Assembly (NCBI GenBank): GCA_015231405.1
Contig: JADGBR010000015.1
Location: forward strand, 1-42,814
Reading direction: 5' to 3'
DNA from: Candidatus Omnitrophota bacterium
Lineage (GTDB): Bacteria > Omnitrophota > Gorgyraeia > Tantalellales > Tantalellaceae
DNA: 42,814 bases
A program made the translations under genes and the position numbers. Numbering within the stretch: the stretch's first letter is position 1; each line of letters opens with the position of its first letter. The notes below the pieces were generated by a model, which did no database searches, was not told the DNA's origin, and saw nothing but the letters and a program-made list of their open reading frames with translations. Below are positions 1 through 42,813 of this stretch, piece after piece.

Positions 1-3000
1 TTCGCTTATGAATTCCTGACCCAGCCCGTAAAAATGATACCTGGAGTCCGACGGATCATACCTGACATAGTATTTATCGCCCTCCATAAGAATAGCCGTG
101 AACTGTTTAGAGTCGGCGAAACATTTCCAGATATAATCCTTGTCATCCTGGTCTATGGCACCGGAGTTGTCGACGTCGACCGCGCTGTCGTAATTGGCAT
201 CCTCAAAGAATAATTCCTGCAACTGAACGGCGCTATCGGCAGGCTGGTCTATCCAGGTGTACCTCACCTCATAATTGCCTATTGGGAGGTTTTCGAGAGT
301 TAAGTGCCCTTCCCCGTAGTAGTTCTTGCCTGCGAATACTGTTATTGTGCCGCGGTCTACGAATTCAGCGGAATAGGGCTCCTTCACCTCGACCTTGAAC
401 TTATAGCCTGACAATGGGACATCGTAATTGCCGAAAGCTTTCATCCTAAGCCCGACATTTATGGTACCGGAGTTACCGAACGGATTCATGAAAGTGCCTC
501 TAACTCTGGGCGCGAAAGTTTTAGATGTTGCGTATAGCTCGTCGGGCTGCTGGGTCGACCTGAAGAAACCGGTGGGCACGGAATTCACGGCCTTCTTCCG
601 GTCGATCATTATCGACCCCATGTGCTGGTCGATGAGAAGAACATCCTGAGCGTCGATCTCACCGTCGCGGTCTATATCTGCCACGTTCGTGGGCCTGAGG
701 AACAGCCTGTCCGCTTCGTCAAACACAAAATAATCTTTGCCTTTTATATTCACGATCCCGCGGGAGTCGGTCTTGTACTCGGTATGCCCGTCAGTGAAGA
801 CATACATCGCTTCGGACCTTTGTATCTTGAGGCCTCCGTTGACGCTGTCGCCTACGAATGTATTGAACACATTGCCCATGAATACTTTTTTGCCGTAGTA
901 ATCCGACGGAACAAATGATGGATCCGGCATAGAGATGCTGGTGGCCATCCCCTCGCCCACGTCGCCTGTTTCCACGGTAGAGACAATTTTATGGTCCCTT
1001 ACTTCCCCTACTACGCCTAATTCGCTGATATACATGGAATAACGCGTGTTCGCGTCATAGGATGTCACGGAGAGGTCCGGTATCACAAGCCTTACTTTAT
1101 AAGCGAGGACAGGCTCCGAAAGGCTGAACGTGTAAAAAGCGTAATTATTCCGGCAAGTTGCGTTAGATTTCCATTCATTCGGAGTGACCCATACTGACCC
1201 GTCGAAATACTGGAAATAATAGTTCCCGAGAGCGTTCCCGGAAGAAGAACCGCCCCACTTAACGGACATTCCGCTAATGTTTCTGGGTTCAGGCCATGTG
1301 TACTCGATCTTAGCCATATTGTCAGTGTCTGAACCGGTAACTCCAAAAGAGGTATTCGGATCATTATCTCTTAGATTTGTGATCTCATTCGTTCCTGACA
1401 TACTACCCATGGAATAAGCGCGTCCGCTCGTGAGCGCCACAGCCGTATCCGCGCTCCCGGCGATATTAGTATATACAGAGTTGAGTTCCGAAAGTGATAC
1501 CGCCATGTTCCAGCGCTCGTCGTTATCGACAGTACTTATCGCCGACGCCCCGAGTTCGGAAAGAACGCTGTAGGCACCGGAAGTTAGCCCATCAAGGGCA
1601 GTTTCGCCTATCTTGCTAAAGAGAAGGACAGCGCCGCGATCCATCCTATCAGGATAGATCGTCTTGAGATATTCGGCCATGGCGTTTGAATTAGCCGGGA
1701 TGCTCGTATCCCAGTTCGTGAGCTCGACGGAGCCTGCGGGGCTCGTGTAAACTATGTTTATCCCTGCCCTCGGCGTCCAGGAGGCTTTATCGACATACGC
1801 TCCGTTAACCTTGGTCAAGGCGATCTTTTCCTCTTTCAGGTATTCTCCGTCCTGACGGGTCAGGGTCAGATTGAATTCATCGTCCCCTGTCAGATCATTT
1901 ATGCTTTTCGCCCCCATCAGCGAAAGTATCGATTTCGCGTTAGCGGTAAGACCGCCGAAGGCGGCATTACCCATTTTCTTTATAGCAATGGAAGCGCCGT
2001 CTTCTTTCGCCCTAGATTTGTAAAGTTCGGTCAGATACTGGGCCATAGCGTCGGCTTTTGCCGGATCGCTGGTATCCCAGTTCGTGAATTCGTACCCCCC
2101 GTCCGCCGTGACGTACATTACATTCATGCCGGGAGACGGCGTCCAGGCGGATTTACTTACCTGGATGCCGTTAACCTTCGTCGCGGATTGGATCTCCGTA
2201 ATATCCATGACAGGCTTATACCCGCCCTGATCTACCGCGAACTCCGCAATGGCAAAAGTCGGTAAATTAGTGTCCGTTGTCTTATCGATCACCATTCTGA
2301 TCTTTTCGGCGTAAACCGCTTCCGGAAGGGTGAAATTATATGTGGTGCCATAATAGAACGGCCCGTCTATATTTCCCTGAGGGGTCGTTCCCCTTTCCGG
2401 GTCCCATTCATCCGGAGAATGCCATTCCTCGCCGTCATAATACTCAAAGTGATAAGATTCGATCGGATATGACCCCATTTCCGAATTCTGGAATTCAACG
2501 CTTACTTTATCGACCCCATTGATCGCGCCAAGATCGTATTCGATCACATTCGTGTACCTGGCGTCTACGGCGTAATACGTATTGCTCTTGCCATCCCTGA
2601 TAACGTTTATATCTGTCGACGCGGGCGGCATATAAGCGCTCTGGCTGTTCGTTACTCCGGTATGGGCAAGAGTTACGTCATCCAGAACTGATATATCCCC
2701 GTCGAGGAGCTCCATAGATCTAATATTGGCTTCATAGCGCCACGCGTCGTCGTTCGCTAGACCGCGTATGTTCTCCGCCCCCATGGAACCGAGCTGATTA
2801 TAAAGTTTTTCAGTGAATCCCAAGAACGCGCTGTTGCCTTTTTTAATAAAGCTAATGGTAGAGCCTATGTCCCTGACACGGCTCCTGACGGCGCCAGCCA
2901 GGTAGTCTGCCATAGCATTAGCCTTCGCCGGATCGCTTGTATCCCAGCTGGTAAGCTCAATGCTCCCGTCAGGCCTCGTTATCTGAACATTAATGCCGTC

Positions 3001-6000
3001 GGAAACTTCCCAAGACGATTTAGCCGTGCCAGCGCCGTCGGTTTTAGTTACGCAATATTGTTCGTTATTAGTGAACAGGCTCTCGTCATATTCATCGACA
3101 CATGACCATTCGGCGATACCGATATCACCGGACCCGTTAGAGTTCCTTGAAAGCCTTACCCCTGTCGCCTGGACTGGAACCTGAAGAGTGTATTCATAAG
3201 TTATGCCCCAGCCCTGTTTCTGAGAATTTGGCCCCGTGTTCCAATCAGCCGGCTGCTGCCAAACACCGTTAACGTCGCGATACTGCAGCCAATAGAAAAC
3301 GGGTGTTGCTCCTGACGATTCTTTTTTCCATCGTAGCGTCATCTTTTGGATATCCCTTGTCCGGTCAAAGTCATATTCAAGTGTACCGCTATACTGCAAT
3401 ACGGTCGCCGTTGAATTATCACCGTCATGCATCAACGATATATCAGACCCCAACGATCCAGATAACAGTTTCGCGCTGGCTCCGAGATCATTCGCCATAT
3501 TAAGCACCCTGTGAACGGTTTGGTCAAATCTTGTGGAATATGACCATGTGTCGTCACTGTCAAGCACACCTATATTCCCCGCTCCCAGCGCGGCTAATGT
3601 ACTGTAAAGCCCCGGGGTGAAGCCTTCGAAGGCGTTAGGGCCCTTCGACGATAATATCATTCTCGCCCCATTCGACATCGTCTTAAGAGATCTGGCGTTA
3701 ATATAGACTTTCAGCGCCTCGGCGTTAGCGGGATCCGATGTATCCCAGCTCGTGAAGTCTGCTATATCCATGCCCGGATCAATAAAAAGGACATTTATAC
3801 CGTCACGGTGAGTCCACGTTGACGGGATCTCGCCTGTGCCGTTACGCGAGGCCATAGCATCGGGATAAGTGGCGGGAGTTATTTCCTCGGCGTCATAGAA
3901 GAACATGTTACGCGACTGTCCCGCGGCGATAGCGGCTGGATCGGTCAGGGATCCGTCAACGTAGAAATTCGTGGTGAACAGCGAACTCGTAATCTCGACC
4001 GGCACTTTTCGGGTGCCGTTCACATAGAAGCTCGATGTGAATTCCGAAGCGACGATACCTGCCGGTGTCATCAATACGCCGTCATGGTAGAATTTAGCCA
4101 CGGCGTTATCAGAGATAACGTTATACACGGCGACCGGCGAGCCTTCGCCCAGCGTGACAAGTTCATCCGCGGGTACGTCCATCCTCTTCGCCGCGTAAAG
4201 TTTTCCGTCTATGACAACAGTCTCACGCCCGCCTTCGACTATCTTATCATCGGGATTGTAGAATGCCACCGGACGAGCCTCAATGTCCTGGTAGATCTCA
4301 TAGGCCTTATTGTCAAAAATGACCTTATTCTTCCCGTCGACCTTATCGAAATAACTGTCGAAATCGTGTATTGTTTTAAGGATGACCGCGCCGTCTGAGT
4401 TATGGTCGATCTTGTATACTGTGCCGCCGATCAGTATTTTTGTATTTCCGTAGAAACTTGTCGGGTGTACCGAGTCGCGTAAATAAATATTATCGCTGGC
4501 AGAGGCGTCAGTCGCCGAAGGAGTTATCGATTCCTGTATGTCACCCTCGGGAGCGCCTATATAGCCGGACATGCTCCAGTTGGTCCCGGAGGTGATCTCC
4601 CTTATATGGGCGCTGCCGGCCGTCTCGAAAGCCAGGCGAGCAGCCGCATCGAGAGCGCCTATCTTATTTCCTTCTTTAGATGCCAGAACTATCGTCCCGT
4701 CAGGAAGTTCCCTGAGGTATTTCGTCATAAGCGCGACAACCGAGATATCGGAGCAATCCCAGCTCGTGAACGTACGAACTCCCGTATCCTCGTCAATAGT
4801 CACCATATTTATGCCTTCCTGCGCCCAGATATCCCTCGAAACCGATGAGCCGTTCCTAAGGCATCTCTCGCCGCTTTCGGGCAACATGGCCACACTGTTC
4901 CAGAGGAAAGCAGAACCCGTCGTCCCTGACGCGGCCGAAACCACGACTTCTAATCTTTCAGCAGGTATCAGCGTAACCCTTCCGGTATTCAATTCGATCA
5001 CACCGTATGTTTTATCCCCGATATGTATCTCGGATCCCCATGTCTTACCGGTGACAGGGGTTGACACAGCCTGGACGGTAGAAATATTGAACCTCAGAAG
5101 GCCCTGGTCTCCGACAAAATGGTAAGTATAATTTTGGCCTTTAAAATCCACTACCCCGTCGGCGGCGGGCATGCTGATGAGACCCTTGGAAGACATAGTT
5201 ATCTGGTCCTGGAGCTGGTCGATCGAAAGCGAATAATCGGAGCCGTCAACACGTACGCTGTTCGTAACGGCGTCGCTCACCGATGTCGCCGCTCCCATGG
5301 CAAAGCGTCTCAGGTCGTAGACATATTCGCCCGACCCCGCAGCCGTCTCATGCTTTGTGACCTCGAACAGATTCTCGCCGAACTCAAGAGTCCTCTCTGT
5401 CAGGCTGACCCCAAGACCGTCGAACATCATATTCACATCGGCGTCGTCGACCATAAAATCGCCGTTAAGATCCGCCGCGGTATCCTTCAGGTTTGTAACA
5501 AACACGCTGTCAAGCCTTATAGCCGTCTCCTCTCCGAAATCGTTTATCCATTCGAATTTAACGGTGTGTGTCCCGGCGCCAAGCTTATCTTTTATGGCCC
5601 CGCTCATATAGTCGTCCGACACGGCGGTTGAATTCCAAGGCAGCTCAATATCGCCTTTATACACTGTATCAACGTAAACCCTGAGCTTAAGCGTCCTAGC
5701 CTGGTCGATGTCCGGAGCCTCACCCCAGTACTGGATGGGTTTGGTCGTTGGCCCTTCCTTAAAAGCGATATATTTTATATCGAAAGACCCGCCCTGCACA
5801 TCGTTAGCCGGATCGAACCTGAAGGCTTCCATATTGCCTGTCCATCCCTGGATGTCTTTCATATCTACAAGGACCGTCCTGTATTCGCCGGTGTTATTCT
5901 TCACTCCCGGCACGTCGAACGTCCGCGTAAAATCAAGGTTGTTGGCATCCCCGGAATCCCTTGAACGCGAGCTCCAGGAAATGCTCGCCGTAGACGCGGA

Positions 6001-9000
6001 GTATTCTCCTTCATACCTGTAGGATATCTCTACGTAACGCGCCGTGCCCATATCGAGGGCCGTATTAGTACCGTCCGGCCAAGACTGGCGTTCGGCCGGG
6101 TTAGCCGAGTTATTGTAGTAGCGCGTATAGTAAAGGTAGGGGTCGTCGCCGGTAACGTTCATCTTAAGAGTACCGGAAATGTCTCCCGCGGAGCTGGTAT
6201 AGACCCCCTTCGAAAGATCGTTCCTGAAGTTCCCGGAGAAAATATCCCATTTAGCCTGGTTCGACCCCCACGGCATTGTCCAGTTATTGGGCTTGGAATA
6301 TCCGGTATCATTCCTCGCCGAAAGGCCGATGTAATAGTTGTCCTGCGAATCTACTTTGATAAGGTACTCTGCGGACGGCACAGCCTGTGACGGATCGCTA
6401 AAGCCGTCGTGAGAGATCGTATTCGTATAGATGGAATTGAACTGCCACTGGTATCCGGCAGTCGAAACCTGTTTAATATCGTTCGCATCTTTTTTAAGGA
6501 TCGCGGAATTCATGCCCGCCAATAATATTTCCTTGTCCTTAACGTCGAAGTTCCCGTCGCCGTTCAGGTCGCGCCTGTTCTTCTCAAGGAGGGTCACGAC
6601 GGACGTATCCGGATTTATGGCTACGACATAATGTATGATCGTTCCCGGCGCTTCCCCAAGAGGTATGTCTATGGTATCTTTTAACTTGCCGTAATCGGGG
6701 TCCGCGTACGCGTATGACGCTTCCTTCCAGAGCGCGCCCGAAGATGCCTGGGCGTTATTGCCTTTCGTTGAGGAATCAATGAGTGACCTACCCAATCCTT
6801 CGTCGAGAGTGAGGAACAAACGGCAGTAGTCTTTAAAGTGATCAATGCCGTCGGCCGGCGTCCCAGTATGCAGCTTACGCACGGGATCCGGCTGGAGAGC
6901 CTTGGACCATACTGAAATATCGTCTATCTCCCCCTTAAAGGAAGAGGCGTGATCGAAACCGGCGCCGATGACACCCTGTTTCTGGCCGATGACAAATCCC
7001 GCGCCGGAGACGGTTATGGTTTTTGACGTAGACTGTTTATCGCTGACTAGATATCCGTCGATGTAGAGAGATATGGTGCTGGCTTCACGCGTTATGGTAA
7101 CGGTATGCCAGGCGTTATCCTCAACTGTGCTGTTCTCATCGAAAGTATATTTCATGCCGTCCAGATAGACTTCCCAGACATTCACTTTCTTGTCGTAAAC
7201 CGTTGAAAACTCATTGAGCTCATTGTTATTAAGAGCTCCGCTCATAACATAGCTCCTATCATTCGAATCCGGCGAGAACTTCAGCCTCTGAGAGACCGTG
7301 AAATCCTTAAGGCCGTTAATCGCCGCGCCCGGGACTTTTATATTTTCGGACCCGGTCTCGTAATTAATGACCTTACCCGGTTCACGGAGAAGGGCGTTGG
7401 AGTATCGGTTCCCCTCACCGTCCACAAGGACTACTTTACCCAGGACCGGATCGACCACTGCCGTAAATTCCCTGCCGTCAAGCTGCAGTATCTCCGTCAT
7501 GCCTCCCTTTATCCTGTGCGCTCCGACCATCGCGAGGTCGTTATTCGTTATTGTTCCGTCGTTATCGAGATCGCAGTTCTTGCTGTACAGCGCGTCCCGA
7601 ACGAACGCCTCTTCTATTTCAAGGCTGAGCCCGACCTCCGGGTTCAGCCACGTGAATTTCACGGTGTGGCTGCCTTCAATCAGAGGAATGTTCAGCGAAT
7701 CTTCAAGATATGACAAACGGCTGGGCTTGACGTTTATTACACCGTGATCGACGCCGTCGACTTCAACCTTAAATCGGTAATAGTCGAAACCCCTCATCGG
7801 TATTTCCTGTTCGCCCCTTGTCCTCGCCGTAAGGCCTATGTTGTAATTGCCTCGCCCCGTAACGCCGGTAAATTCATAAGTAACGGCATAAACGGCGTTC
7901 GGATCGGCGGTAAGTGGTTTTGTCCAGATGACTCCTTCCGGAGCGCCCGTATAAAAACCGGTCATGCCGGACCTTAGTGACGCAGAAAGGGTATGGGGCT
8001 CCGTCGAACCCATGGCGAGTTTGACCATGTTCTCATCGTCCTGATCGACCCTTCCGTCGCCGTCGAGATCAGCCCTCTGGGAAAGGCTTATGATGCCGTT
8101 ATCCTTCTTGACCGCGTATTGAACTCCGTCCAGCACGATCTTGCCGTAAGAGCCGCTTTCGACCATATTGCCGGTTCTATCGTAGAAAATGAACGTCCCT
8201 TCGGGATATTTTTCAAGAGCGTAATACGTCTTCTCGCCTATATCGAGCTTTTGCACAAGGCTCGTGTCGCTGTACCTCGAAAGGAATATATCGATATCAG
8301 CGCTATCGACCTTTCCGTCCTTGTTTATGTCAGCCCTCGAGTCATAGTTCCTTGACGCCACTTCCACCGTTCTTATGCTCGCCATAGGCTGTGCCCATGT
8401 CGGGTAACCTTTCACAATGGCTTCTTTTGAGTTGACCCAAACGAACCGGAAGGTATGGCTGCCTTCCGTGAGCTTTGATATGCTGATAGCTCCTTCAACA
8501 AAATTGACGTTATTGCCGGATATTGAGACCGTACCGATCTTGCTGGATGAGCCGTCAAGATATACGTCGAACTTATACCTATAACCCGATGGAAGCGTGT
8601 TATACGGCGACTCGTTCTTGACCTGAAGTTTGATGTCAAAAGCGCCGGTAGCGGCTATGTCGAACCGGTAATCGATCCAGTTATCCGTTCCCTGCGCGTT
8701 AGAGTGTACAGCACCGGCTGTCCCAGCCGTAACGGTCTCAGCCCAATTCTGGGTAGCTGAACACATAGCCCCCCGTTTAGAAGCAGGGTTAACCGACCCT
8801 AGAGCGCCTTCCAGTATACGCCAGTCCGACATATCAAGGGTATCACTGGAATCGAGGTCCCACGCCATGCGTTCTACGATCTTCACGTCCTTTAAGTCGG
8901 GAGCCCATCTCACTATATAATCCACTCCGTTCATGGAGTACAACACGGAGTCGTTGCCAGACACGCCGGATGTCTTCACGCTATTGACCTTAAAGCTCTG

Positions 9001-33000: not shown

Positions 33001-36000
33001 ATAGGCTATCTCGGCTCCTTTAAGGACGTACGATCCTGAATCAGAGACGGTGACGGTATACGAGCCGTCTTTTGCGCTGAGAGTGAAAGTTATCCCTCCG
33101 GAGTTATAAACAACATTATAATCGATGCCGTTTATAGTTAACGCCTGGTCGAGGGCGTTCATCGTCACGCTGGAGCGCTGTATCAGGTTCAAGTCCATGC
33201 GGTTATATTTTCCGATGATATCGGCATATATAGCCCTGTCGGCGTCATCGGCGAGGCCGCTCTTATTAAAATCGACCGAAGCGAGAGTAACACCGCTGTA
33301 CACAGGAACGGAATATATCCTCTGGTACATCTCCTCAAGACGGGATTTCTGTTCCAACGGGATGGACATATCCTTCAATTTAAGCTCAATATCCGCTCTC
33401 ATCTTATTTATGTCAGACTCATCAAGAAGGCCGTCGCCGTTAAGATCGAGACTGTTATAGTTCGAATAGCTAGCTGTGAGCGCGGCAATGTCGGCGCCGT
33501 TAACTTCAGGATTGCCGTTTGAACTGATGGAGACGTAACGCGTACCTATTTTCAGAAGAGTGCCCGCGACCGGCTCGCCGACGGTGACACGTTCGAACAA
33601 AAGCTCCCCGGAGGCTGTTCCTTGAACAGCGTAAAGGTCTTTACCTACCTGCACCTTACCTGTCCGCTTATCGGACTGATAGCTTTCTCCGGTAGTTGAG
33701 AGTCTTATCGAACCGTCCGCGGACCTGATTATCGAATACGCCACACCGTCGCGGAGGGTCACGGTACTACCTCCGAACCTTGAAGTAAATTCTGCCGACA
33801 CGGGCGTCGTTTCCCTTACGATGACACTGTTCGAGGATGGATCGCGGCTGACCGAGTAAACCGCGCCTTTTATCGTTAACTGGCTCCTGGCGTCATCGGT
33901 CTGGAAGAAATTATAACCGTCGTCAAAAACGTACCTTCCCGTAACGAAGTCGTAAACGACTTTGTAAATCACCCCGTTCATCATGACCGGCGCTTCACCG
34001 GTAAGGCTTTTGGCTGTGTTCTTCACGGTCAGTTTCTTTATTCCGTATTTCACCACTTCGCTCACGGAGTAATTTTCAGTGCCTATCCTGAGTAGGCCCG
34101 ACGGGTCCTCGTAATAAACCTTTTTCGTAATTCCGTCAGGCATTGTATAAGTAAAGGTGTAAGTTGTATAACCTCCCTGGGCCATTCTCTTAATGTCGTA
34201 TTTCGCGCCATTTATTTTAACCGTTCCTTCTCCAGAAACGGCGTCGATCGTCGACGAAGTCTCTTCCAGTTTTTGCTCGAGTATTACCGTTTCCGCACCC
34301 GTAGAGCTCTTTGACACTACGACTTGATAAGTCACGCCGTCCATATCCACAAGATGCTCGCCGAACTTCATATAGCTTGGGCACACCGCTGTCTGGTCCT
34401 CGTGCGTCCCGTCTGGCATGTAGACAAAATTCAAAGTTACCGCGCCGCGTTTCCGTATCATGTACACCTTTCCGTCTATCTCTACCGGGCTGTCCGGCGC
34501 GGACAGAGCGCTCGTCACCTTCGCGACGTTGACGAACTTCGTAACAGGATCGATATTAACGGTGTATTTGACGTTGTTCTCGAGCCTGACCGTTTTCCTT
34601 GTGGCGTCGCTATTGAACTTAGCTCCGGTGGAAACGTTAGTGAACGTGTAGAGACTATTAAAAGCATCGTAGCCTACGCGGTAACGCTGGCCCTTAAGCT
34701 CTATTTCACCGCTCGAATATGCGGTATCGCTTTCCAGGTGCAGCTGGGCAAGCACGGTATCTTCGGTTCCTTCGTATTTCCCTACGGTAAACGTATTCCC
34801 GTTGATATTCACCAGATTAGTGAGGGCCCTGCCCGAATAGGTCGGGTCGCCGTCAAGCGCATCGGCACTTTCACCAGGACGGGGCAGGATTTTGAGCCTG
34901 TGGCTCACATAAACGTCCTTACCGTTAGTTACCGTGTAATCTCCGGACTTAAGGTCTCTCGACACGGCATATATATCACCGTCAAGCATCACCGCGCCTT
35001 CTTCCAACGCCGTCGAAGTCACCTCCACGCTCTCGAATCCGATCTCACCGTTCGAACCGATCATAAGTTTATAGTCGACACCGTTGATATTCAATATGTC
35101 CATGGGTCTCGCGTTATTCTTAAAAAGGTAACCGTCGAGGTAAACATCGACATTAACCGCTCCGTCCTTCTTAATGCCAAGCTCATCGCCGTTAACTTCA
35201 AATACCGTCCCCGCAACAGACTGAATAGCGCACGATCCGGCTGCAGCCTTGATATAAAGGACTTTTGCCGTCCCGTCGCCGGCAGATACACGTTTATATC
35301 CGGACATATCCGAAGAATCCGAATAAGCCGACCCGTTATAGCTGACGTACGTCAAACCGCCATCCTCACGCTCAAGGACCTCGAGAACGGAATACGAATC
35401 GTCGACCAGAGGCACGTCAAGAGAAAGCGATACGGAATCGCCGGTCTTTACAACCCTGTAGGCCCTATCATCGATTAAAATAATGTCAGCTGCGGTAACA
35501 GAATATTCTCCTCTAGTTACGGTCACGGTACTGTCAAGGTTCTTCTTTATCATGTATTTATTGCCGTTCACAAGCACTACGTCGTCAGCCACGTGTTTCA
35601 CGATCATTTCCGGATATATGGTCACTTCGACGCCGTTTATCGCGGGTTTAATGAGCTCAAGCTGGACATTTCCCTGTGACTCGGTGACCTTGTACCTGTA
35701 CCCCTTGAGGTCCACAAACTCGTTAGCCCCATCCCTAACCCCGGCATATGACTTATCTCCGTATGTGAAAACATGCCTATTATCGGATATCTTGGTCACC
35801 TCATACTGTATGCCCCTAGTCCTTATTCCCTGATATTCCTCGACTACCTCTATGACCTCGCCGGCGACATTGACGCTGGCTTCGACCGCCTCGCCAAGGG
35901 ATATCTGTCCAGTAGATGTATCTTCCGAAATATAGTACTTGTATCCGTTAATTACGACCTCATCGCCCGCTTTCGCGCTGAGCACGGTGGTAACGCCGCT

Positions 36001-39000
36001 GGAGAAAGCGTAACTTCCATCGGCGTTCTTCCTCACCAGGTATTCGACGCCACCTATCTTAACCGCGCCGTCGGCGACTTTTCCGGTAAGGAACCTTTCC
36101 AGAAGTGCGGTTCCCTGTACGCTGAACGCGGCCCCGTCGAGTATTACGACCTCCTCGCCTTCGACGATCTGGCTCCTGTATTCTTTCCGATCATCATCAG
36201 TGAACACCTTAATGGCTCCATCCACGCGGTACGAGTATCTTCTTCCGTCAACGACACCTGTCATAGCGTCAGCGTCAAGCACCCCGGAGATACGATCCCT
36301 CGAAATAGACAAGGTGCCTTGAGCAGAGTCCTCGGCTATCGTATATGTTATTCCGCTAAGCCTTACCTTGCCGGTTACGGGGTTACTGGCGTATAGCGAC
36401 AACCCGTCGTCGAATATATATTGTCCATGCCTTGTGTTGACGTTCACCTTATATTCATGCCCTTCCGCTTTAATTATATAATCAGCCGTCTTGACGCTCC
36501 TTGAGCTTTCTCTCTCGATATAGGGCACCTGAGAGACACCGTCCTTTTTCACGATACAATTAACTCCGTCGAGTTGGAATTTACCGTCAGAGCCGGTCGT
36601 ATATGACCGGGTACCGTCGGTGACAGTATAGCCCGGGGTTGTCCTGTTGATCGTTATATTCAGCAGGTTATTGCCGATCTCAACCGAATACCCCTCCAGC
36701 GCCACGCTCATGTCGTATCGTTCGACCGCGGAGATCGTCCCTTCGTCAAGGTCGAAAGCGGTGGCATAAGTGTCGGAGCCGCTCACAAAATCTCCGTCGC
36801 GGCCCATTATAGAGAGATCCCCGCCATCGGCGACCGTATATGTAAGGTCGCCGCTCGCATCGGCCCTCTCGACCTGAGCGTCAGTAATGTTGAAATCCAG
36901 GAGCGTGATGATCTTATTCAACACCGTCTGGTCGTCTGTAGTTATTATACCGTCCCCGGTCAGGTCCTTAACGCAAAGCGCGTCTATGTAAAGCTTCGCG
37001 TCCTTGAGGTCAATGACTTTATCGCCGTTAAAATCAAGGAGATAGCGTCCGTTCACTTTCCTGTAAGCGTTCTCGGTCATATAATAACGGGCGATGTCCG
37101 ATATCCTGTCCACGTCGTTATCTGGCAGCGCGGTGTTGTTCTCGAGCTTCCCGTCAGAATTGGTGTCGTTACCGCTTATTACCTTCTGCAGGAATAGCAC
37201 ATCGGCATCATCGATCCTCATGTTATTATCAAAATCTATCCTGGCATCAAAGCCCGCGTCAAGCGACGTCTTCCCAATGAGGCCTCTCACATATTCGACA
37301 TCGCCGTCGTCCACGCGCTTGTCGTTGTGCCGAACATCATAAGTCCTGATGATGGCGGTGAGCTTATCGGTATCATGGGCCGTTACTATCCCGTCTCGGT
37401 CCGGATCAAAATTAGTCATATTGAATCCAGAACGGTTCATATAAACGTCGCGGACCTCGACGCCGGCTGACGAAGAAATATCCTTGAACACATACTTGAT
37501 CTCGTGCTCGCCTTTATCAAGCTCCATCCGGAACGAATTCTCCGAGTATCGCCCAGCTGACGCGTCCAGCTGAAGAGTGCTCTTATACACGCCATCAACA
37601 TAGACCCATACGATATACTTGAATCCCTGCGGCAGGGCCTCGCCCTTAATTTCCCTCGTCGAGAGCCCCACCCAGTAATCGTCCTTTTCCGCGACATCAT
37701 AAGTATAGGCCAGCGACGCGCCTTCGACATGCGACGCCATCGACTTCTTGTTCACGGTATCCGAGAATTTAGTCTTTTTGGTATCCGCTGCGTAAACCCT
37801 TCCCGCCAGGACAGATTCCCCTTTACGCGTTCCGCCGTCGGGCCATCTCAGTGGCGCGATAACATTATCCGAATCGGCATTATAAGCTCCAGGCCATATT
37901 TTTTCATAGATAGTCCTCACGAGGTCCTTGTCGACTTCGTTCACCTTACCGTCACCCGATACGTCGCCTTCAAGATAATGGTCGTAGCTGTATGTAAGAA
38001 TAGCCGAGTCCTTTTCGTCAACCCTTCCGTCCCTGTTGACGTCGGCCAGATCGAACTGCTCGGAGAGTAGCGATATACTGTCGTCCTTGGTAGCCTCGAC
38101 TATCTCCTTCATGAGCTCGACCCATTTGACATCGTCCTCGTTTATCAGGCCGTCCTGCGTATAATCGAAAAGCGCTTCGGGCTTACTGGCGTCATAGGCT
38201 TTTATGAACTCGGCGAGATCGGTCGTCGTTATCGACCCCACCCTTGTAGTCCCGCCCTCAGACATCATCATATATGTGGATTCGTCGGTTGTTCTATTGG
38301 CCTTCTTAAGGTCATATTCCAGGGCCGTGTTCTGAAGATACGTGTTATAAGCATAGTTGGCCATCTCCCTTAAGAGCTGTTTGTCCTTAAGGTCAACGCC
38401 AATGGCGGTGTCTTTATTGTCCATTATATCGATGACCGTCCCTAGCTTTTTCATATCCTCAAGATCTATTTTTGAATTGCCGTCGACATCAGCCCTTTCC
38501 AATTTACGATTTAACACGGTGTTGGCGGTTATCATATCCGCGTCGGCGTTATTCACCATGCCATCGCCTGATACGTCCTCTTTAGGCATGGCCCTGAGAG
38601 CTATATTGCCCTTTCCGTCATCCGTAACATCGAAGAGCTTTCCGCCAATGACAACAAGTATCCTTCCATTCTTATTAAAACTTGTAGCTGATTCCGCGGT
38701 GTTCTTGTTAATGAAGACGTATTCACCGGTGGCCTTACGGGATATCATGTAATCGGCTACCGCCAATGACACTGTTCTTTCTTTTAACGATATTGTCTGG
38801 TCGCTATTTCTTTGGATCGCGTACAGATCATCACCTAGCGCAAGGAAATCCCCCTCGATGCTGCGATACACCTGCGCGGTGCCGATATCGGTAAAGACAT
38901 AACTATCGTTCGCTGTATCCAATTCTACAGAGTAGGTATTAATGCCGACCTTAATGCCTCTTTCGAATATCTTAACTGAGCCTTGAGTAGTTGAATACAT

Positions 39001-42000
39001 ACAACTATAAAGTTTACCGTTAATCTTAACCAGGTTTTGGTATGTGCTCGGGTATTTTACATTCGTCTGGCCATTAACGAAAGTAAATGTCCTGGTCTGG
39101 TCGTATTGCTTTATCGCTGAAAGCACCGGTGGCTCCTGAGAAGAATAAACATATTCCGTTCTTACAAGAGCGGCGTAAGGCTCGGAGTAATACTCGTACA
39201 TCGAAAATGTATCCCGCGTTATGTTATCTTCGCGTATGACCTTTCCACTGTTGTTGTAAGAATCCTTAACGGAACTCCCCTGGTCGTCGATATATTCCTT
39301 CGTAATGATATTCCAGTTGTTGGCGGCCGTATCAAGATTCTCGTAAATAGAATTATGCGCGTAAACGTGTGTCTCGACCTTATCGCCGGCTGATACATCG
39401 CTCATGATCGGATCTGCGTTATTGACCGTATACGCTCCGCTGTATTCGGTCACTTTCACGTTAACGCCGTCCCATTCGTATGTGGAGTAAGTCTTTTTGA
39501 CCGTGTTATAGACAAGGGCTACTTTCCCCCTGGGACCAAGAGAAGAAACGCCGTCGTAGTATTCATATACTAGGTTACCGATAGTTTCGCGCTTTAAGAG
39601 ACCGGTATCCCCGTGATATTCCTTGACCTGGCCCGTGGCCATGATCGTTTGCGAAACGAGTTTGCCGGTCGCGGAATAATCGTAGATATTGGCCGTAGCG
39701 CCCGTAGCGATATACTTTTCTTCGGCATGTTTTATGGCTGAAGATATACCGACCGTTTCGGGATAATAGGTGTAAGTGTACTGCTTACCGGTTTCGAGGT
39801 TCTCACTGGATGTGAGCTCCCCGTTCTGGCCGAATGTCTGGGTGCGCTTCATCGTAACACCAGGCGTGCGCCCGCTCAAGTTATCGCTGTAATAATCCGT
39901 GACCGACGCCAGTTTCCATCCGTTAACAGCGGGGTCAAGGCTTACATTCTCCTGGTTATGGTAATATGTGTAGGTCTTTCTCCTTGCGGCCTGCACTATT
40001 CCCGCGCCAGAATCGTTCCCTGAAAATACGGAATAGACGCCTTCATACTCATGCGCTATGACCATTGAATCGGTCCATTCGTATTTACGGTATACATTAT
40101 TGTCCGGATCGTAATAGACTTTTACCCGGCCGAAGCCCTGCGAGTTGAAGTTCTCGTTATAGTATTCATATATCTCTCCGGATGAGGATATTGTCTTCCT
40201 CTTAAGCACGTAACCGGGATAGGTATCGATATAAGCCTGATGGTCCTCGTAAAAAGACCCTTGAGCGTTATCGTTATGCCTGTAGAATTTCTGGAGGGAT
40301 CCCGTCGCCGAGTCATACCCTTTCCTGTACTGGATCTTGCCGTCGGGGAAATAAGTGTATGTGGTGTAAACTCCAAGGGCCTTTTGTTCTTCCCTGACAA
40401 GTTGTCCGCTGGTGGAGTATACTTTGGTCCCGGTCACCCTCTGGGTCGCCTTCGCGTATTCGGTCTCTGTGACTTTTTTCCAGCCGTTGGTCAAAGTGTT
40501 CGTGCTCTTCTGGTTGCCGTTGTGTTCATAAACCGTACTCTTCACACGCGCCGTGGCCATAATGCCGGAAAGGGCCTGGCTCGTCATGCCTGTGGTGTAT
40601 ACGCCCTGGTATTCCTTTACCGTGACCTTTGCGACCGACCACTCATAAGTTCTATAAACGGATAGCGAGGCGTCATATTCAAGTAGCACCCTTCCTTTCC
40701 CGGCGCTATCGTAATTCTCGGAGGCGTATTCGACGATATTCCCGTTGGCGAGTATTTCGCGCTTAGGCACGTTCTTCGATATCCCGGTATAATAGGCCGT
40801 GCTCACCCCTAGAGACGCTGATGTCGTCATCTCTCCGTTTATAAGATACCTGTTGACCGAAAACAGGGTTCCGCTCGATGAACTGTAGTTTTCGGCTGCT
40901 GAGACTTTACCGGCGTTGGGAGAGCCGAAGTACCTGTAAAGTTTGTAAGTCCCCTGAACGAGATCATCTTCCCGCACAAGGCGACCGGAAGCGTCGTAAA
41001 CGCTTTTTATTCCTGGCTTGGTCTTTAACACGAGCGTCCAGCCGTTAGAATCAGGGTCAAGGTTCGTCACGGCGCCGTTATGCGCGTATACATAAGATTC
41101 TACCAGCTCTTGGGGTTTAACGCCCGTAAGGATGGATTCGCCCTGGGTCGTATACGATCCGCTGTATACGTCAACGGTGACCGACGTCGTGCTCCATGAG
41201 TATGAAACATACCTTCCGGCAGCCTTGTCGTATACAAGCACCACTTTCCCCGTCTGGCTTCCGGGAACAGCTTCATCAAGATACTCATAAACATTTCCGT
41301 ATTTGTCGACTGACATCTTCGTTTTCCCGGAAATATCGTAGCTGACCGTCCTCTTGATAAGGCCTGAGGCAATACTGCCCGAGAGCCTGCCGAATGAGTT
41401 CTGAATGACCTTATATATCGTTGCGCCAAGCTGTATAGAATTCTGGCCGTACGCGGCGCTCGTGTGACCCGGGATATCGACATAAGACGACTTTATCTCT
41501 CCTACCGTGGACCTTGCCTCTTCGGGTTTCTCGCTTATGCGTATGTCTTTAGTGTCGGGATCGACATATATGTTATAGGTCTTAAGACCGATATTAAGTT
41601 CGCGCTCACCGCCTGTGTTATAAAGTTCAACGTCTTTGACGGCCCACCCGTTATAAGCCGGGTCTAGCGCCTTCATCTCACCGTTAGTATTGGCAAGGAA
41701 CGACAACTTTTTAACGCCGTCCCCGGATGAAATGGCAACGACGACCTGATCACCCGACCATGAGAGGGTGATCAAAGCGTCGGAATCTTTATGATAGACC
41801 TTTGAAACCCTGCCGTAACCCTGTCCATCCAGATTCTCGTCAAGGAACTCGCAGTAATTGCCCTGGGCGTCCTGTATCCTCTTGACCCTGCCCGAGACCG
41901 GGTAACGCGTCGCGCCGCTTATCGCGCCGGTGGCGTTATCGATTATACCCGAGAACGTTGAAGCGACCGAGAAAAGGCTCTCTTTGCCGTGCCTCAGAAC

Positions 42001-42813
42001 GCCGTAAGCGGTCGAGCCGATCTTAATAGCCGAAGTATCGTTGTTATAAGCCAGGATGTCGCGGATGGTCCATCCATTCGAAGCCGGGTCGAGAGCCATC
42101 GTCCCCGTAGTATACGCCGCGATGAACGCTAGGTTCTCTTCCGTAGCCACGAGCCCCTTCGCGGTCGAATACGCTCCGGTGTATATTCTCGCGGCGACTT
42201 TACCGGGCGCGTAATCGCTGCCGTCCGTATCCCAGAGGTATTTGATATATGTTTTTGTATCGACATTGTACGCCAGCGAAACCCTGCCGAAACCTTTGCC
42301 GGCCCAGTTCTCGTCCAGGAACTCGGTTATGTTACCTGCATCGTCCGTAACGCGTGAAACCCTGCCCGACGTATAATGCGCGGCAACGGCGCTACCAAGC
42401 TGATTAGCCGCAAGCATGTCTTCCATCCTGCCGGCGACAGCGTAAACATCTTCCTTATGGTTCATCGTGACATTGCCGGTAGTCTGATCGTAGGATATTT
42501 CGTATGTTTCGGTCCCAAGCGACAATTCGGAATACTCTTCGGTAAAGGAATCGTAGTCGCTTGTCAGGATATATCCCATCGGGGTTTTTTTGACGTTATA
42601 GATCACCCCGTCAACCTCGATCTTCTGATTATAAACAAGCTCGCTCCTCACCGGGACGGTGGATAAAAATATCTTGCCCGAAATGCCTTCTTTCTTAATA
42701 GAATACAAAGTCGTCTTGGCGCCTTCGGTTATCGATGCGGTCTGTCCGGACACGTTGACGGCAATAGCCGGAAGAACGTCGTTACTGTAACCCGCTACCG
42801 TGAGAGGCGCGAA
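1..42813 (-). CDS. Internal fragment of a giant multidomain putative surface/secreted protein (14,271 codons, open at both window edges)
   Basis: With + triplets in register from position 1 (42813 = 3 x 14271), the reverse complement reads FAPLTVAGYSNDVLPAIAVNVSGQTASITEG... at the high-coordinate end and ...DSRYHFYGLGQEFISE at the low-coordinate end. In-frame TTA/CTA/TCA (minus-strand stops) were not seen in the reading, and explicit checks of lines across the window all gave continuous protein in the same frame. Confidence 0.96.
121..690 (-). other. EF-loop / CBM-like / EF-loop module
   Basis: ADIDRDGEIDAQDVLLIDQHMGS - FGNSGTINVGLRMKAFGNYDVPLSGYKFKVEVKEPYSAEFVDRGTITVFAGKNYYGEGHLTLENLPIGNYEVRYTWIDQPADSAVQLQELFFED - AVDVDNSGAIDQDDKDYIW. 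Confidence 0.75.
1000..1410 (-). other. F5/8 type C (discoidin)-like domain, copy 3
   Basis: TNEITNLRDNDPNTSFGVTGSDTDNMAKIEYTWPEPRNISGMSVKWGGSSSGNALGNYYFQYFDGSVWVTPNEWKSNATCRNNYAFYTFSLSEPVLAYKVRLVIPDLSVTSYDANTRYSMYISELGVVG. Confidence 0.8.
1495..1820 (-). other. ILEI/FAM3-like domain, copy 5
   Basis: KVNGAYVDKASWTPRAGINIVYTSPAGSVELTNWDTSIPANSNAMAEYLKTIYPDRMDRGAVLLFSKIGETALDGLTSGAYSVLSELGASAISTVDNDERWNMAVSL. Confidence 0.75.
1858..2190 (-). other. ILEI/FAM3-like domain, copy 4
   Basis: KVNGIQVSKSAWTPSPGMNVMYVTADGGYEFTNWDTSDPAKADAMAQYLTELYKSRAKEDGASIAIKKMGNAAFGGLTANAKSILSLMGAKSINDLTGDDEFNLTL. Confidence 0.75.
2230..2640 (-). other. F5/8 type C (discoidin)-like domain, copy 2
   Basis: STDINVIRDGKSNTYYAVDARYTNVIEYDLGAINGVDKVSVEFQNSEMGSYPIESYHFEYYDGEEWHSPDEWDPERGTTPQGNIDGPFYYGTTYNFTLPEAVYAEKIRMVIDKTTDTNLPTFAIAEFAV. 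Confidence 0.8.
2719..3050 (-). other. ILEI/FAM3-like domain, copy 3
   Basis: TDGAGTAKSSWEVSDGINVQITRPDGSIELTSWDTSDPAKANAMADYLAGAVRSRVRDIGSTISFIKKGNSAFLGFTEKLYNQLGSMGAENIRGLANDDAWRYEANI. Confidence 0.75.
3100..3475 (-). other. F5/8 type C (discoidin)-like domain, copy 1
   Basis: SDISLMHDGDNSTATVLQYSGTLEYDFDRTRDIQKMTLRWKKESSGATPVFYWLQYRDVNGVWQQPADWNTGPNSQKQGWGITYEYTLQVPVQATGVRLSRNSNGSGDIGIAEWSCVD. Confidence 0.75.
3520..3850 (-). other. ILEI/FAM3-like domain, copy 2
   Basis: NGTGEIPSTWTHRDGINVLFIDPGMDIADFTSWDTSDPANAEALKVYINARSLKTMSNGARMILSSKGPNAFEGFTPGLYSTLAALGAGNIGVLDSDDTWSYSTRFD. Confidence 0.75.
3841..4092 (-). repeat. Tandem 21-aa (63-nt) repeat, four copies
   Basis: FYHDGVLMTPAGIVASEFTSS / FYVNGTRKVPVEITSSLFTTN / FYVDGSLTDPAAIAAGQSRNM / FFYDAEEITPATYPDAMASRN; exact 63-nt spacing from 4092 to 3841. 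Confidence 0.85.
4561..4857 (-). other. ILEI/FAM3-like domain, copy 1
   Basis: RNGSSVSRDIWAQEGINMVTIDEDTGVRTFTSWDCSDISVVALMTKYLRELPDGTIVLASKEGNKIGALDAAARLAFETAGSAHIREITSGTNWSMSGY. Confidence 0.7.
5410..6580 (-). other. Expanded EF-loop / CBM-like / EF-loop module
   Basis: RRDLNGDGNFDVKDKEILLAGMNS ... SAEYLIKVDSQDNYYIGLSARND ... LKLRVYVDTVYKGDIELPWNSTAVSDDYMSGAIKDKLGAGTHTVKFEWINDFGEETAIRLDSVFVTN ... AADLNGDFMVDDADVNMMFDGL. Confidence 0.7.
5750..6265 (-). other. Second beta-sandwich (CBM/galactose-binding-like) domain nested within the preceding CBM-like domain
   Basis: WDIFSGNFRNDLSKGVYTSSAGDISGTLKMNVTGDDPYLYYTRYYNNSA...MGTARYVEISYRYEGEYSASTASISWSSRSRDSGDANNLDFTRTFDVPGVKNNTGEYRTVLVDMKDIQGWTGNMEAFRFDPANDVQGGSFDIKYIAFKE. 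Confidence 0.6.
6730..7375 (-). other. LamG-like domain, second copy
   Basis: NIKVPGAAINGLKDFTVSQRLKFSPDSNDRSYVMSGALNNNELNEFSTVYDKKVNVWEVYLDGMKYTFDENSTVEDNAWHTVTITREASTISLYIDGYLVSDKQSTSKTITVSGAGFVIGQKQGVIGAGFDHASSFKGEIDDISVWSKAL. Confidence 0.9.
7520..8085 (-). other. EF-loop / CBM-like / EF-loop module
   Basis: RADLDGDGRVDQDDENMVKLAMGS - VTGRGNYNIGLTARTRGEQEIPMRGFDYYRFKVEVDGVDHGVINVKPSRLSYLEDSLNIPLIEGSHTVKFTWLNPEVGLSLEIEEAFVRD - KNCDLDNDGTITNNDLAMVG. Confidence 0.75.
8270..8880 (-). other. EF-loop / CBM-like / EF-loop module
   Basis: MAWDLDSSDTLDMSDWRILEGALGS - NWIDYRFDIAATGAFDIKLQVKNESPYNTLPSGYRYKFDVYLDGSSSKIGTVSISGNNVNFVEGAISISKLTEGSHTFRFVWVNSKEAIVKGYPTWAQPMASIRTVEVA - SRADINKDGKVDSADIDIFLSRY. 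Confidence 0.75.
9540..10140 (-). other. LamG-like (laminin G/concanavalin) domain
   Basis: NAMHFDRSASDTSSFVNIKYY...RDDQTIELWVNPADLSEKMGLVGKSYWGEGQIALNTDGTIEYSYGIDSGNYATFKTTSGISAGNWSHVALVRDLANMKIKFYINGELVNEFTAPYNRSAGTTNPAYIGYGNYYKNFSVIPMPMRGDIKDVSWWSRSLGADEV: canonical LamG motif order. Confidence 0.9.
10440..10620 (-). other. Dockerin-like pair of calcium loops
   Basis: GSQSIDADSDVDVEDENILRNAIATGVYYPACDLDPDGKIDQLDMAKFLFM. Confidence 0.85.
10780..11490 (-). other. DUF1080/LamG-like domain, copy 5
   Basis: FSGDFNTDGVNPDSIFEMAYLMGDYSGSSPYEYYKPNFWENEDTWVVRDGKLKQIFQNKTYQ...GGDIYLRYVNDNNYYRMRFFDNDNVKIEKVF...AARGDTLEVFIGTVKVLSAIDSSSTKITAGNAGVGTPDGVAADFDDLEIS. Confidence 0.8.
11965..12590 (-). other. 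DUF1080/LamG-like domain, copy 4
   Basis: ADFSGNTDLTKWEMPQ...SASISADMQIINNSGGRPEMDLYLRYTDDNNYYRMRVTCDDDKVVIERKKAG...DIDGDTGIITAYVGGIKVASVTDLSNNKLTSGKSGIGTNFTSAKIDNVKVG. Confidence 0.8.
13320..13490 (-). other. Dockerin-like pair of calcium loops
   Basis: NSGDINRDGDIDQADEDLMISSVTAGDFDWMTDLNDDQATDDNDLAIFRKW. Confidence 0.85.
13640..14305 (-). other. DUF1080/LamG-like domain, copy 3
   Basis: ENFDTLSEGNVDIPQVFGLYFDDTISRPWPNWWSSQTTWMIENGRLNQTFQ...SASMTVESCIYGG...DLYARFVDKDNYYRMRVTMDDKVVIERRRG...AVNGNELRAYINGQEVARVNDSSPSRIASGNAGIGVMSDVKASFDNFGLS. Confidence 0.8.
14785..15390 (-). other. DUF1080/LamG-like domain, copy 2
   Basis: DDFNDGNYAGWVVKDAVNSWAIQQDGTLRGPQ...SISAKVRMGDVTMLDHYEHSAILYAGYQDAGNYYKMTLEDRQSQVTISKVSGG...NWYRLSFVVTQDSQGVKLNAFVGDDLVASALDHSATVLRGGYSGLGTNTAGWDFYFDDIKTGG. 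Confidence 0.8.
15400..16580 (-). repeat. Beta-rich repeat segment
   Basis: VIEANGVEYQIYWEGDIVKFDWG, ILLNGTLYSLASNKTSKEVVLDE, IQLGTNEYMVLDNGDGTYTFGKLADTELFTSKTDGTVEIYEGG, IELGGIRYKLVKEGANITLEEL. Confidence 0.75.
16605..17090 (-). other. CBM-like domain followed by a calcium loop
   Basis: NEINYSFDAAKSGIFDIGLYATTYNGITAPKFNGEDMGYEFSVKIDGVDRGSFMVRAKSDGSVQGVLPLYMAEGAHELNIVWKIPSWYPAANVTGDLSLEVTNVFV then YDLDKDLDIDAGDLAI. Confidence 0.65.
21280..21390 (-). other. Thrombospondin-type-3-like tandem calcium repeat
   Basis: TSDLDHDGQLDPNEAFFDVDNDGIFDGADPKYKG: closely spaced D.D.DG..D sites without the dockerin helices. Confidence 0.65.
25240..25280 (-). other. Isolated dockerin-type calcium loop
   Basis: KADLNGDGRVSYADKAKLQQ. 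Confidence 0.75.
27175..27580 (-). other. Proline/aromatic-rich non-repetitive segment inside the calcium-loop array
   Basis: NMPITIEDIYRGNLVTVGDLADGSPKIGHIQVPAPIPYPVDKNWILDGDDVRPGDARVEISDMYNQVENPAGDNPEPVQPGYRNIYGGEGRGPFVQTFSYNVPEFDENNRPINVINWYGYPIVINVKDYMG. Confidence 0.7.
30170..30700 (-). other. DUF1080/LamG-like concanavalin-fold domain, copy 1
   Basis: GDWEVKGSKMVSSAYSVRASVMMYDKSPDLGNFILETDVRNGYSGDGAGLVFRAQDENNYYDLIINRTNGRLEFRKIV...WARLKVQADGDNFVFSLNGQAMFTATNSQFSSGKAGLVAGKDNPAEFDNFAVG. Confidence 0.75.
31370..31850 (-). other. EF-loop / CBM-like / EF-loop module within the calcium-loop array
   Basis: KADIDGNGTIGQGDFSTWAAF - FGWAYKPEVTGSYRVELSLKSSEFAMVKVDVYDNERLVGSFKTGTTPSGFTVEGVNVDLSADTVNHNIKFVITKETSKATTLEVDKVRMIRP - YDIDSDGRYTVDDGRLIQRMI. 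Confidence 0.65.
32690..33170 (-). repeat. Beta-rich repeat segment
   Basis: LTINGIDYNVVYNSGGITFTLSAKDGSYTVTVSDSGSYVLKGAEIAYTAV...VAIHGAVYTVKAENISGGRIKYTFTHGPDVYQS. Confidence 0.7.
33170..33545 (-). other. Calcium-loop cluster with a helical spacer
   Basis: SSNGNPEVNGADIAAL, LDLNGDGLLDESDINKM, VDFNKSGLADDADRAIY, with charged helix-like spacer RADIELKLKDMSIPLEQKSRLEEMYQRIY. Confidence 0.8.
33545..36830 (-). repeat. Long uncharacterised beta-rich repeat region
   Basis: Serial units such as VKIGGVEYLVRKNADGSYAFSSG, VVINGYKYYISEDTSTGQISLGEAV, VLVNGNKYMIKKNLDSTVTVTRGEYSV, VMMNGVIYKVVYDFVTGRYVFDDGYNFFQTD, LTIKGAVYSVSRDPSSNSVIVRETTPV. Confidence 0.8.
36830..38590 (-). other. Dockerin/EF-hand-type calcium-loop array, about 10-13 loops, interrupted by a CBM-like domain
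   Basis: DVSGDGMVNNAD, DVDGNSKIDLED, DYTQDGLINEDD, DVNRDGRVDEKD, DVSGDGKVNEVD, DPDRDGIVTAHD, DFDNNMRIDDAD, DFNGDKVIDLKD, DLTGDGIITTDD. Confidence 0.85.
37430..37800 (-). other. CBM-like jelly-roll domain between two calcium loops
   Basis: ASLAYTYDVAEKDDYWVGLSTREIKGEALPQGFKYIVWVYVDGVYKSTLQLDASAGRYSENSFRMELDKGEHEIKYVFKDISSSAGVEVRDVYM; the 'V.VDG...........L..G.H.I.Y.......' pattern is typical of CBM/galactose-binding-like folds. Confidence 0.6.
38590..39060 (-). repeat. Beta-rich 'INGxxYxV' repeat segment
   Basis: LVKINGKLYSCMYSTTQGSVKIFERGIKVGINTYSVELDTANDSYVFTDI...FLALGDDLYAIQRNSDQTISLKE...ILVVIGGKLFDVTDDGKGNIAL. Confidence 0.7.
39060..42400 (-). repeat. YD/Rhs-like repeat region, about six units spaced ~480-600 nt
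   Basis: Recurrent FLDENWAGKGFGRVSLAYN / FLDENLDGQGYGRVSKVYH / YLDEAVPGSQTGKVVLVYD / YASENYDSAGKGRVLLEYD / YYNENFNSQGFGRVKVYYD / YYDGVSSLGPRGKVALVYN, each followed by Y..Y.W....V...Y.G.Y. YD-type strings such as YDYSATGKLVSQTIMATGQVKEY and VYSTSGQLVREEQKALGVYTTYTYF lie between them. Confidence 0.75.

Follow-up and report, generated by a model that had tools for sequence, protein, structure and literature searches.

An open frame across the window

Is a minus-strand frame that stays open from one end of a long contig fragment to the other the interior of a real gene and, if so, how far does that gene extend and what might its product do? The window, by which we mean the whole stretch of DNA analysed (42,814 bp), comprises bases 1-42814 of contig C6 (69,855 bp) in a 3.66 Mb genome of 93 contigs. 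Translation of the reverse complement from 42813 to 1 yields 14,271 codons with no stop, as the sequence-only reading had claimed, and the remaining five frames contain 232 to 1,006 stops each, with a longest open run of 530 codons. Since about 412 stops would be expected in this frame from its position-specific base composition, chance is ruled out. The GC contents of its codon positions (0.52/0.39/0.61) are coding-like, even over the full length, and resemble those of a neighbouring dnaK-like gene. TRF detected no tandem repeats in the window, and no Rfam families are present there, hence no Rfam element such as an intron. The window is the interior of a real protein-coding gene:

1..42813, minus strand: inner part of a giant protein-coding gene, with 14,271 sense codons and neither a start nor a stop

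An ORF list that requires both a start and a stop misses this frame, as had been pointed out, and holds only three plus-strand shadow ORFs of at least 200 aa (207 to 400 aa). That the frame runs off both ends is also true, but both ends are assembly boundaries past which the gene continues. On the 3' side of the frame, the left edge of the window (position 1) is the contig end; on the 5' side, the frame begins at 42813 next to a 91-N scaffold gap (42815-42905), which the right edge (42814) directly precedes. Extension into the flanking contig, as had been proposed, found the remainder to be open on the same strand as well and reached neither a start nor a stop.

Extent of the gene and colinear frames in related genomes

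The 27 kb of C6 upstream of the window encode the same kind of protein on the same strand, open end to end in three pieces. The giant gene thereby fills all of the 69,855-bp contig, with about 23,290 codons (23,292 in the summed count) over ~69.8 kb, an extent that allows for gaps and one frameshift. The 42,813 bp in the window already exceed the 20 kb of single open frame above which Omnitrophota ORFs are counted as giant. The pieces and gaps on C6 are as follows.

F0, 1..42813, minus strand: window frame, 14,271 codons
42815-42905: gap of 91 N, separating gene pieces
F1, upstream of the window, same strand: 1,144 codons stop to stop
45961-45970: gap of 10 N, separating gene pieces
F2, upstream of the window, same strand: 4,951 codons
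48800-48809: third run of N, in frame
F3, right end of C6, same strand: 3,030 codons, open at the contig's right end

Two further contigs of the same genome, C41 (18.0 kb) and C18 (48,086 bp), are also open from wall to wall, C18 apart from one N gap.

Colinear open frames were found in four other genomes (G003, G035, G285, and G170). G003, which belongs to the host's family and another genus, carries eight contigs (41,927 codons summed), each open end to end with the exception of C74, whose frame stops 71 bp before the contig end. In G035, from another family of the same class, contig C9 (135,114 bp, no N) is a single frame of 45,037 codons that runs off both contig ends and is colinear with F3, F2, F0, and C41 at 22% to 39% identity. 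G285 and G170 contain further colinear pieces of the giant gene. For the initial 2,400 and the final 2,900 residues of G035:C9, none of the four other genomes has a relative. Among named genomes, a scan with profile A1 recovered two loci, both assigned to 'Candidatus Omnitrophota bacterium': CSMAG_1412 (DAOVKF010000005.1, 23,523 bp), which agrees with G003:C55 in both length and match, and nzgw285 (JAHFFE010000004.1, 135,114 bp), which corresponds to G035:C9. With two such MAGs as named relatives, one of them (the equivalent of G003) in the host's family, the connection to Omnitrophota raised in the earlier reading stands. The distribution of the A1 segment is patchy, as only five of the 384 genomes in the class carry it. 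A scan of IMG/VR yielded no relative and so gave no sign of a viral origin.

Nine aligned regions shared with G003 (351 to 2,868 codons each, in the window and upstream; 36% to 52% amino acid identity) were compared by codon position. The proportion of differences is 0.27 to 0.43 at the second position, 0.36 to 0.47 at the first, and 0.60 to 0.66 at the third, the pattern that arises when selection maintains a protein in the frame concerned, here in the window as well as upstream.

The check for in-frame stops proposed for the minus-strand frame thus found none, and independent assemblies of other genomes contain the same frame in the same order. An assembly or statistical artefact, whether a chimeric or collapsed contig or a frame open by composition alone, might be suspected from the three N gaps in C6, the many diverged repeats in the gene, and the contigs ending inside it in five of five genomes, but it merits almost no credence and is, for the window, already refuted as far as the data go: it is contradicted by 0 rather than about 412 stops, by colinear open frames in independent assemblies (contig names suggest different assemblers, k141-style for CSMAG_1412 and NODE-style for nzgw285) and in genomes from different genera and families, and by the lack of tandem repeats and the selection pattern at codon positions in the window.

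Domain content and composition

The following features were identified in the window.

38974..42813, minus strand: RHS/YD-like tandem beta-repeat region, residues 1-1280, e.g. 'GRVxLxYDxxxxxYxxYEWxxxxVxVxEYxGxY'
37996..38169, minus strand: Dockerin_1/EF-hand-like repeat (PF00404, 23.6 bits, cut-off 22.9)
33514..36816, minus strand: unannotated all-beta repeat region, unit ~60-70 aa (by eye), 'V.I.G..Y.V......G.Y.F.DG...Y.S'
28465..31203, minus strand: Dockerin type I/EF-hand array, seven stretches over the Pfam cut-off (PF00404; 28465-28665, 28618-28776, 28804-28956, 29092-29265, 29632-29796, 30895-31119, 31057-31203)
30181..30672, minus strand: weak 3-keto-disaccharide hydrolase/concanavalin-like domain (PF06439, E=3.7e-4, 21 bits, below the cut-off of 26.8)
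26311..27171, minus strand: two Dockerin_1 repeats (PF00404; 26311-26472 and 27004-27171, 29.0 and 32.3 bits)
9553..9981, minus strand: Laminin_G_3/concanavalin A-like lectin domain, two stretches in the C-terminal third (PF13385, E=1.5e-41)
6856..7314, minus strand: pentaxin/laminin-G domain (PF00354, E=2.6e-14; PF02210, E=8e-12)
4552..4815, minus strand: ILEI domain (PF15711, E=3.6e-22)
2272..2601, minus strand: F5/8 type C (discoidin) galactose-binding-like domain, two stretches in the C-terminal third (PF00754, E=6.4e-16; PF22633, E=1.7e-10)

NCBIfam gave nothing above its cut-offs, and neither Pfam nor NCBIfam has an RHS/YD-repeat match for the beta-repeat region of the giant gene. This region (38974..42813) is colinear with G003:C55 4783-5788 at 26% to 37% identity; its AlphaFold model is nearly all beta with low confidence (mean pLDDT 53), and Foldseek matches it weakly to OspA and Rhs/teneurin shells. 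The repeats at 33514..36816 are 44% identical to G003:C55 and 26% to G035:C9, and their model is likewise nearly all beta, of low confidence (mean pLDDT 63), with no confident fold match. Because of these pLDDT values, and because nearly all Foldseek TM-scores lie at ~0.1-0.25, the models are not taken as evidence for a fold. At the sequence level, the repeats at 33514..36816 also weakly resemble short repeats of the cell-wall-binding type (E 0.004-0.04), a match too weak for us to claim membership in that type.

Dockerin_1 matches occur in all parts of C6 and are weakest in the window's C-terminal third. Upstream of the window, Pfam identifies laminin-G and 3-keto-disaccharide-hydrolase-like domains, including a stronger PF06439 copy (E=1.9e-24). 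F3 contains TSP3 repeats and a C39-like domain, and C41 a second C39-like domain; these score 21.6 and 19.1 bits against a PF03412 cut-off of 22. C39-like domains are located at L003:764-9853 (F3 ~840-1005), L060:395-895, and G035:C9 8978-9541 and 92303-92809. The Cys and His are present in the host's own copies and in several relatives, and the Cys is absent from copies in G035, G285:C71, and G170:C99, so that these domains may possibly represent a self-processing device or an inactive remnant.

The part of the protein encoded in the window is acidic (pI 4.6) and poor in cysteine (0.2%), with a mass of 1.57 MDa. EF-type loops number 153 on C6 and 204 on C18. By hydropathy, the ~23,300 aa of C6 contain a single borderline hydrophobic segment; C18 has six weak segments and G035:C9 has 11. 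Contig C18 (L124-L126, 1-48086) opens with an extreme Asp-rich EF-hand-like array, its initial 3,500 aa containing 168 EF-type loops, and also carries an HExxH motif (HEFMH). Its C-terminal tandem repeat, 'YGVSAFQVAVAAYGEGTKGAFGF', is present in none of six other genomes searched.

The many Dockerin_1 domains, together with the PF06439/concanavalin-like glycan domains, could suggest a cellulosome-like scaffold or enzyme chain, in which dockerins dock onto cohesins to form a polysaccharide-degrading machine. However, the 95.9%-complete genome G000 has no match to cohesin (PF00963), a search that does give a match in the control Methanosarcina acetivorans, and among the Pfam matches to the C6 frames there is no confident one to a catalytic glycoside hydrolase domain. 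This makes a cellulosome quite improbable, and with no cohesin in the genome, the dockerins are probably non-cellulosomal.

Breaks in the frame and probable continuation onto other contigs

Upstream of the window, an apparent 1-base frameshift without N lies at C6 60764-60809, beside a run of five G. If this break at ~60.8 kb is biological, the part downstream of it would not form one chain with the upstream part. A rival reading is accordingly a gene broken here, or several adjacent large genes, with two or more shorter proteins as products. In G003, however, contig C74 is one frame of 6,144 codons in which 551-3474 aligns with F3 78-3026 and 3482-6005 with F2 19-2485 (43% to 50% identity); it is continuous from 3474 to 3482, so the frameshift is absent in G003. 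The run of five G fits a single-base sequencing or assembly error. Moreover, the roughly 20,250 codons downstream of the frameshift are free of stops, so any real break would have to be recent. Shorter products are therefore unlikely, and the protein would probably be synthesized as a single chain.

The two breaks at N gaps are assembly gaps, since both are spanned in order by G003:C55, a single frame of 7,841 codons free of gaps, which carries F2 2483-4946, F1 73-1020, and F0 401-2961 in succession at 25-7841. G003 contigs C166, C132, and C136 carry on over F0 to its last residue, leaving F0 4746-6024 uncovered. Contig C136 passes from the end of C6 into the host's C41 (residue 14271 corresponds to 6385, then C41 176-779 to 6891-7249), and the continuation of the gene from C6 into C41 is well supported. 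The linkage from C41 to C18 is supported more weakly and rests on relatives: G003:C75 matches C41 4785-5928 and is followed by G003:C113, with which it shares an end overlap of only 18 bp, and C18 in turn matches G003:C113.

The ends of the gene are not assembled. Neither a start codon nor a stop codon of the giant gene was found, nor a signal peptide, and there are no end overlaps among C6, C41, C27, and C54 of the host. Queries for an N-terminal extension (G035 1-2400 and G170:C152 1-1839) matched no contig of the host, and those for the 3' end (the ends of G035:C9 and of C18) matched no further contig.

The pieces of C6, C41, and C18 sum to 23,292 + 6,001 + 16,016 = 45,309 codons, a figure that contains unassembled gaps and neither a start nor a stop. 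The whole protein exceeds 23,000 aa and probably 45,000 aa. Ranking it with the very largest, as the earlier reading did, is justified for the gene as a whole, which has at least ~23,290 codons on C6 and probably more than 45,000; the window is a fragment of it, and the 14,271 codons of the window alone are no record. From the order of the segments in the relatives, it is likely that C6, C41, and C18 together hold a single gene that exceeds 45,300 codons without reaching either end and is larger than the Velamenicoccus archaeovorus giant (39,678 aa), and that this gene is orthologous across several Omnitrophota families, in which the order of its modules has persisted while its sequence diverged to 22% to 50% identity.

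Comparison with described giant genes

Giant ORFs of more than 20 kb have been described in Omnitrophota, including ones with PF00404, PF13385, and PF00754, and their dockerins were called non-cellulosomal and suggested to function in adhesion (Seymour et al. 2023, PMC10066038). The present gene shares with them the phylum, the size class, dockerins that are probably non-cellulosomal, and this adhesion-type trio of families, all of which it contains. It differs in being colinear across five genera in several families; the giant ORFs of the class Velamenicoccia are poorly conserved (PMC10066038). Most of those in Omnitrophia have several predicted transmembrane helices (PMC10066038), whereas the ~23,300 aa of C6 appear, by hydropathy, to be essentially without one. 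The giant of V. archaeovorus LiM (39,678 aa, 42 predicted transmembrane helices) has a presumed cell-surface role in contacts with other cells, and its peptides are 3-fold up in attached cells (PMC10066038). It too is a single giant ORF of Omnitrophota, and its description sets it apart from the present protein, apparently a soluble one with an abundance of EF-hand/dockerin and lectin-like modules.

A preprint cited in PMC12057145 (West-Roberts et al. 2023) is described there as reporting giants of up to ~85,800 aa, interpreted as predator surface proteins; these likewise are giant genes from Omnitrophota and related lineages. Giant Omnitrophota ORFs with such domains are thus already published, and larger ones have been reported according to that citation. 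In Planctomycetota, a different phylum, a survey of proteins >5,000 aa found Dockerin_1 to be enriched in huge extracellular proteins (PMC11573180), a likeness to the gene studied here. What is added is a gene of probably more than 45,000 codons traced in order through five genomes of several families, together with selection along its frame and an explanation of its breaks.

Proteins this large are a challenge to current understanding of how bacteria export and fold proteins and bear the cost of translation. In the published Omnitrophota giant ORFs few domains are recognised, and those of one class are described as poorly conserved. The orthologous series from five genomes yields conserved segments, their order, and testable sites (C39-like domains, EF-hand arrays, and lectin-type domains). 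Assemblies shatter such genes into wall-to-wall open contigs, and simple ORF lists miss them.

Proposed role of the giant protein

Attachment to other cells, predation, and a coat have been proposed for the giant proteins of this phylum (PMC10066038; PMC12057145), and the sequence favours adhesion or a coat. The best reading of the domain content is a secreted Ca2+-binding adhesin or coat filament. We consider it fairly probable that the gene encodes an exported, very long Ca2+-binding adhesive chain whose lectin/adhesion modules serve in attachment. The product would be exported as a very long, acidic, cysteine-poor chain, secretion being suggested by the domains only, as no start, signal peptide, or stop was found. 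Its dockerin/EF-hand repeats would bind Ca2+ and so stiffen the chain, and the laminin-G, pentaxin, F5/8-C, and RHS-like beta modules may serve as lectin/adhesion units. In this way the cell could bind other cells or particles by their polysaccharide-coated surfaces, a capacity that possibly belongs to the predatory or epibiotic way of life suggested for the phylum. The C39-like domains in C41 and the upstream part of C6 might process the chain, a step that is speculative because some relatives' copies are without the catalytic Cys.

Alternatively, the protein could be a structural coat rather than an adhesin or weapon, forming a calcium-dependent sheath round the cell as proposed for V. archaeovorus (PMC10066038). 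Low sequence conservation with a conserved modular order, the acidic Ca2+-binding EF-type loops of C6 and C18, and the lack of enzymes with strong matches are all consistent with such a sheath. However, the laminin-G, F5/8-C, pentaxin, and ILEI lectin-type domains fit the recognition of something extracellular, and C6 has almost no predicted transmembrane helices, unlike the V. archaeovorus giant with its 42. A purely structural coat is thus a possible, though less probable, alternative to the adhesive chain.

Other large proteins in the host and its family

Contig C27 carries an ORF of 2,252 aa, open at the 3' end (L061:3-6758), with a Sec-like signal peptide (by eye, MKNLITKIVMLGAVVFTTLATVNA), laminin-G domains, and repeats like those of the window. 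It was considered as the N-terminus of the giant gene and dropped, as its C-terminal part is 46% to 50% identical to a separate protein on C22 and, apart from shared repeats, nothing connects the ORF with C6. The C22 protein that shares this part is a dockerin protein of 3,093 aa, and the two possibly constitute a second family of large surface proteins. In another genus of the host's family, a single ORF of 10,591 codons bounded by stops (G011:C17 38023-69795, L064-L066) has a C-terminus that resembles that of the host's C22 protein.
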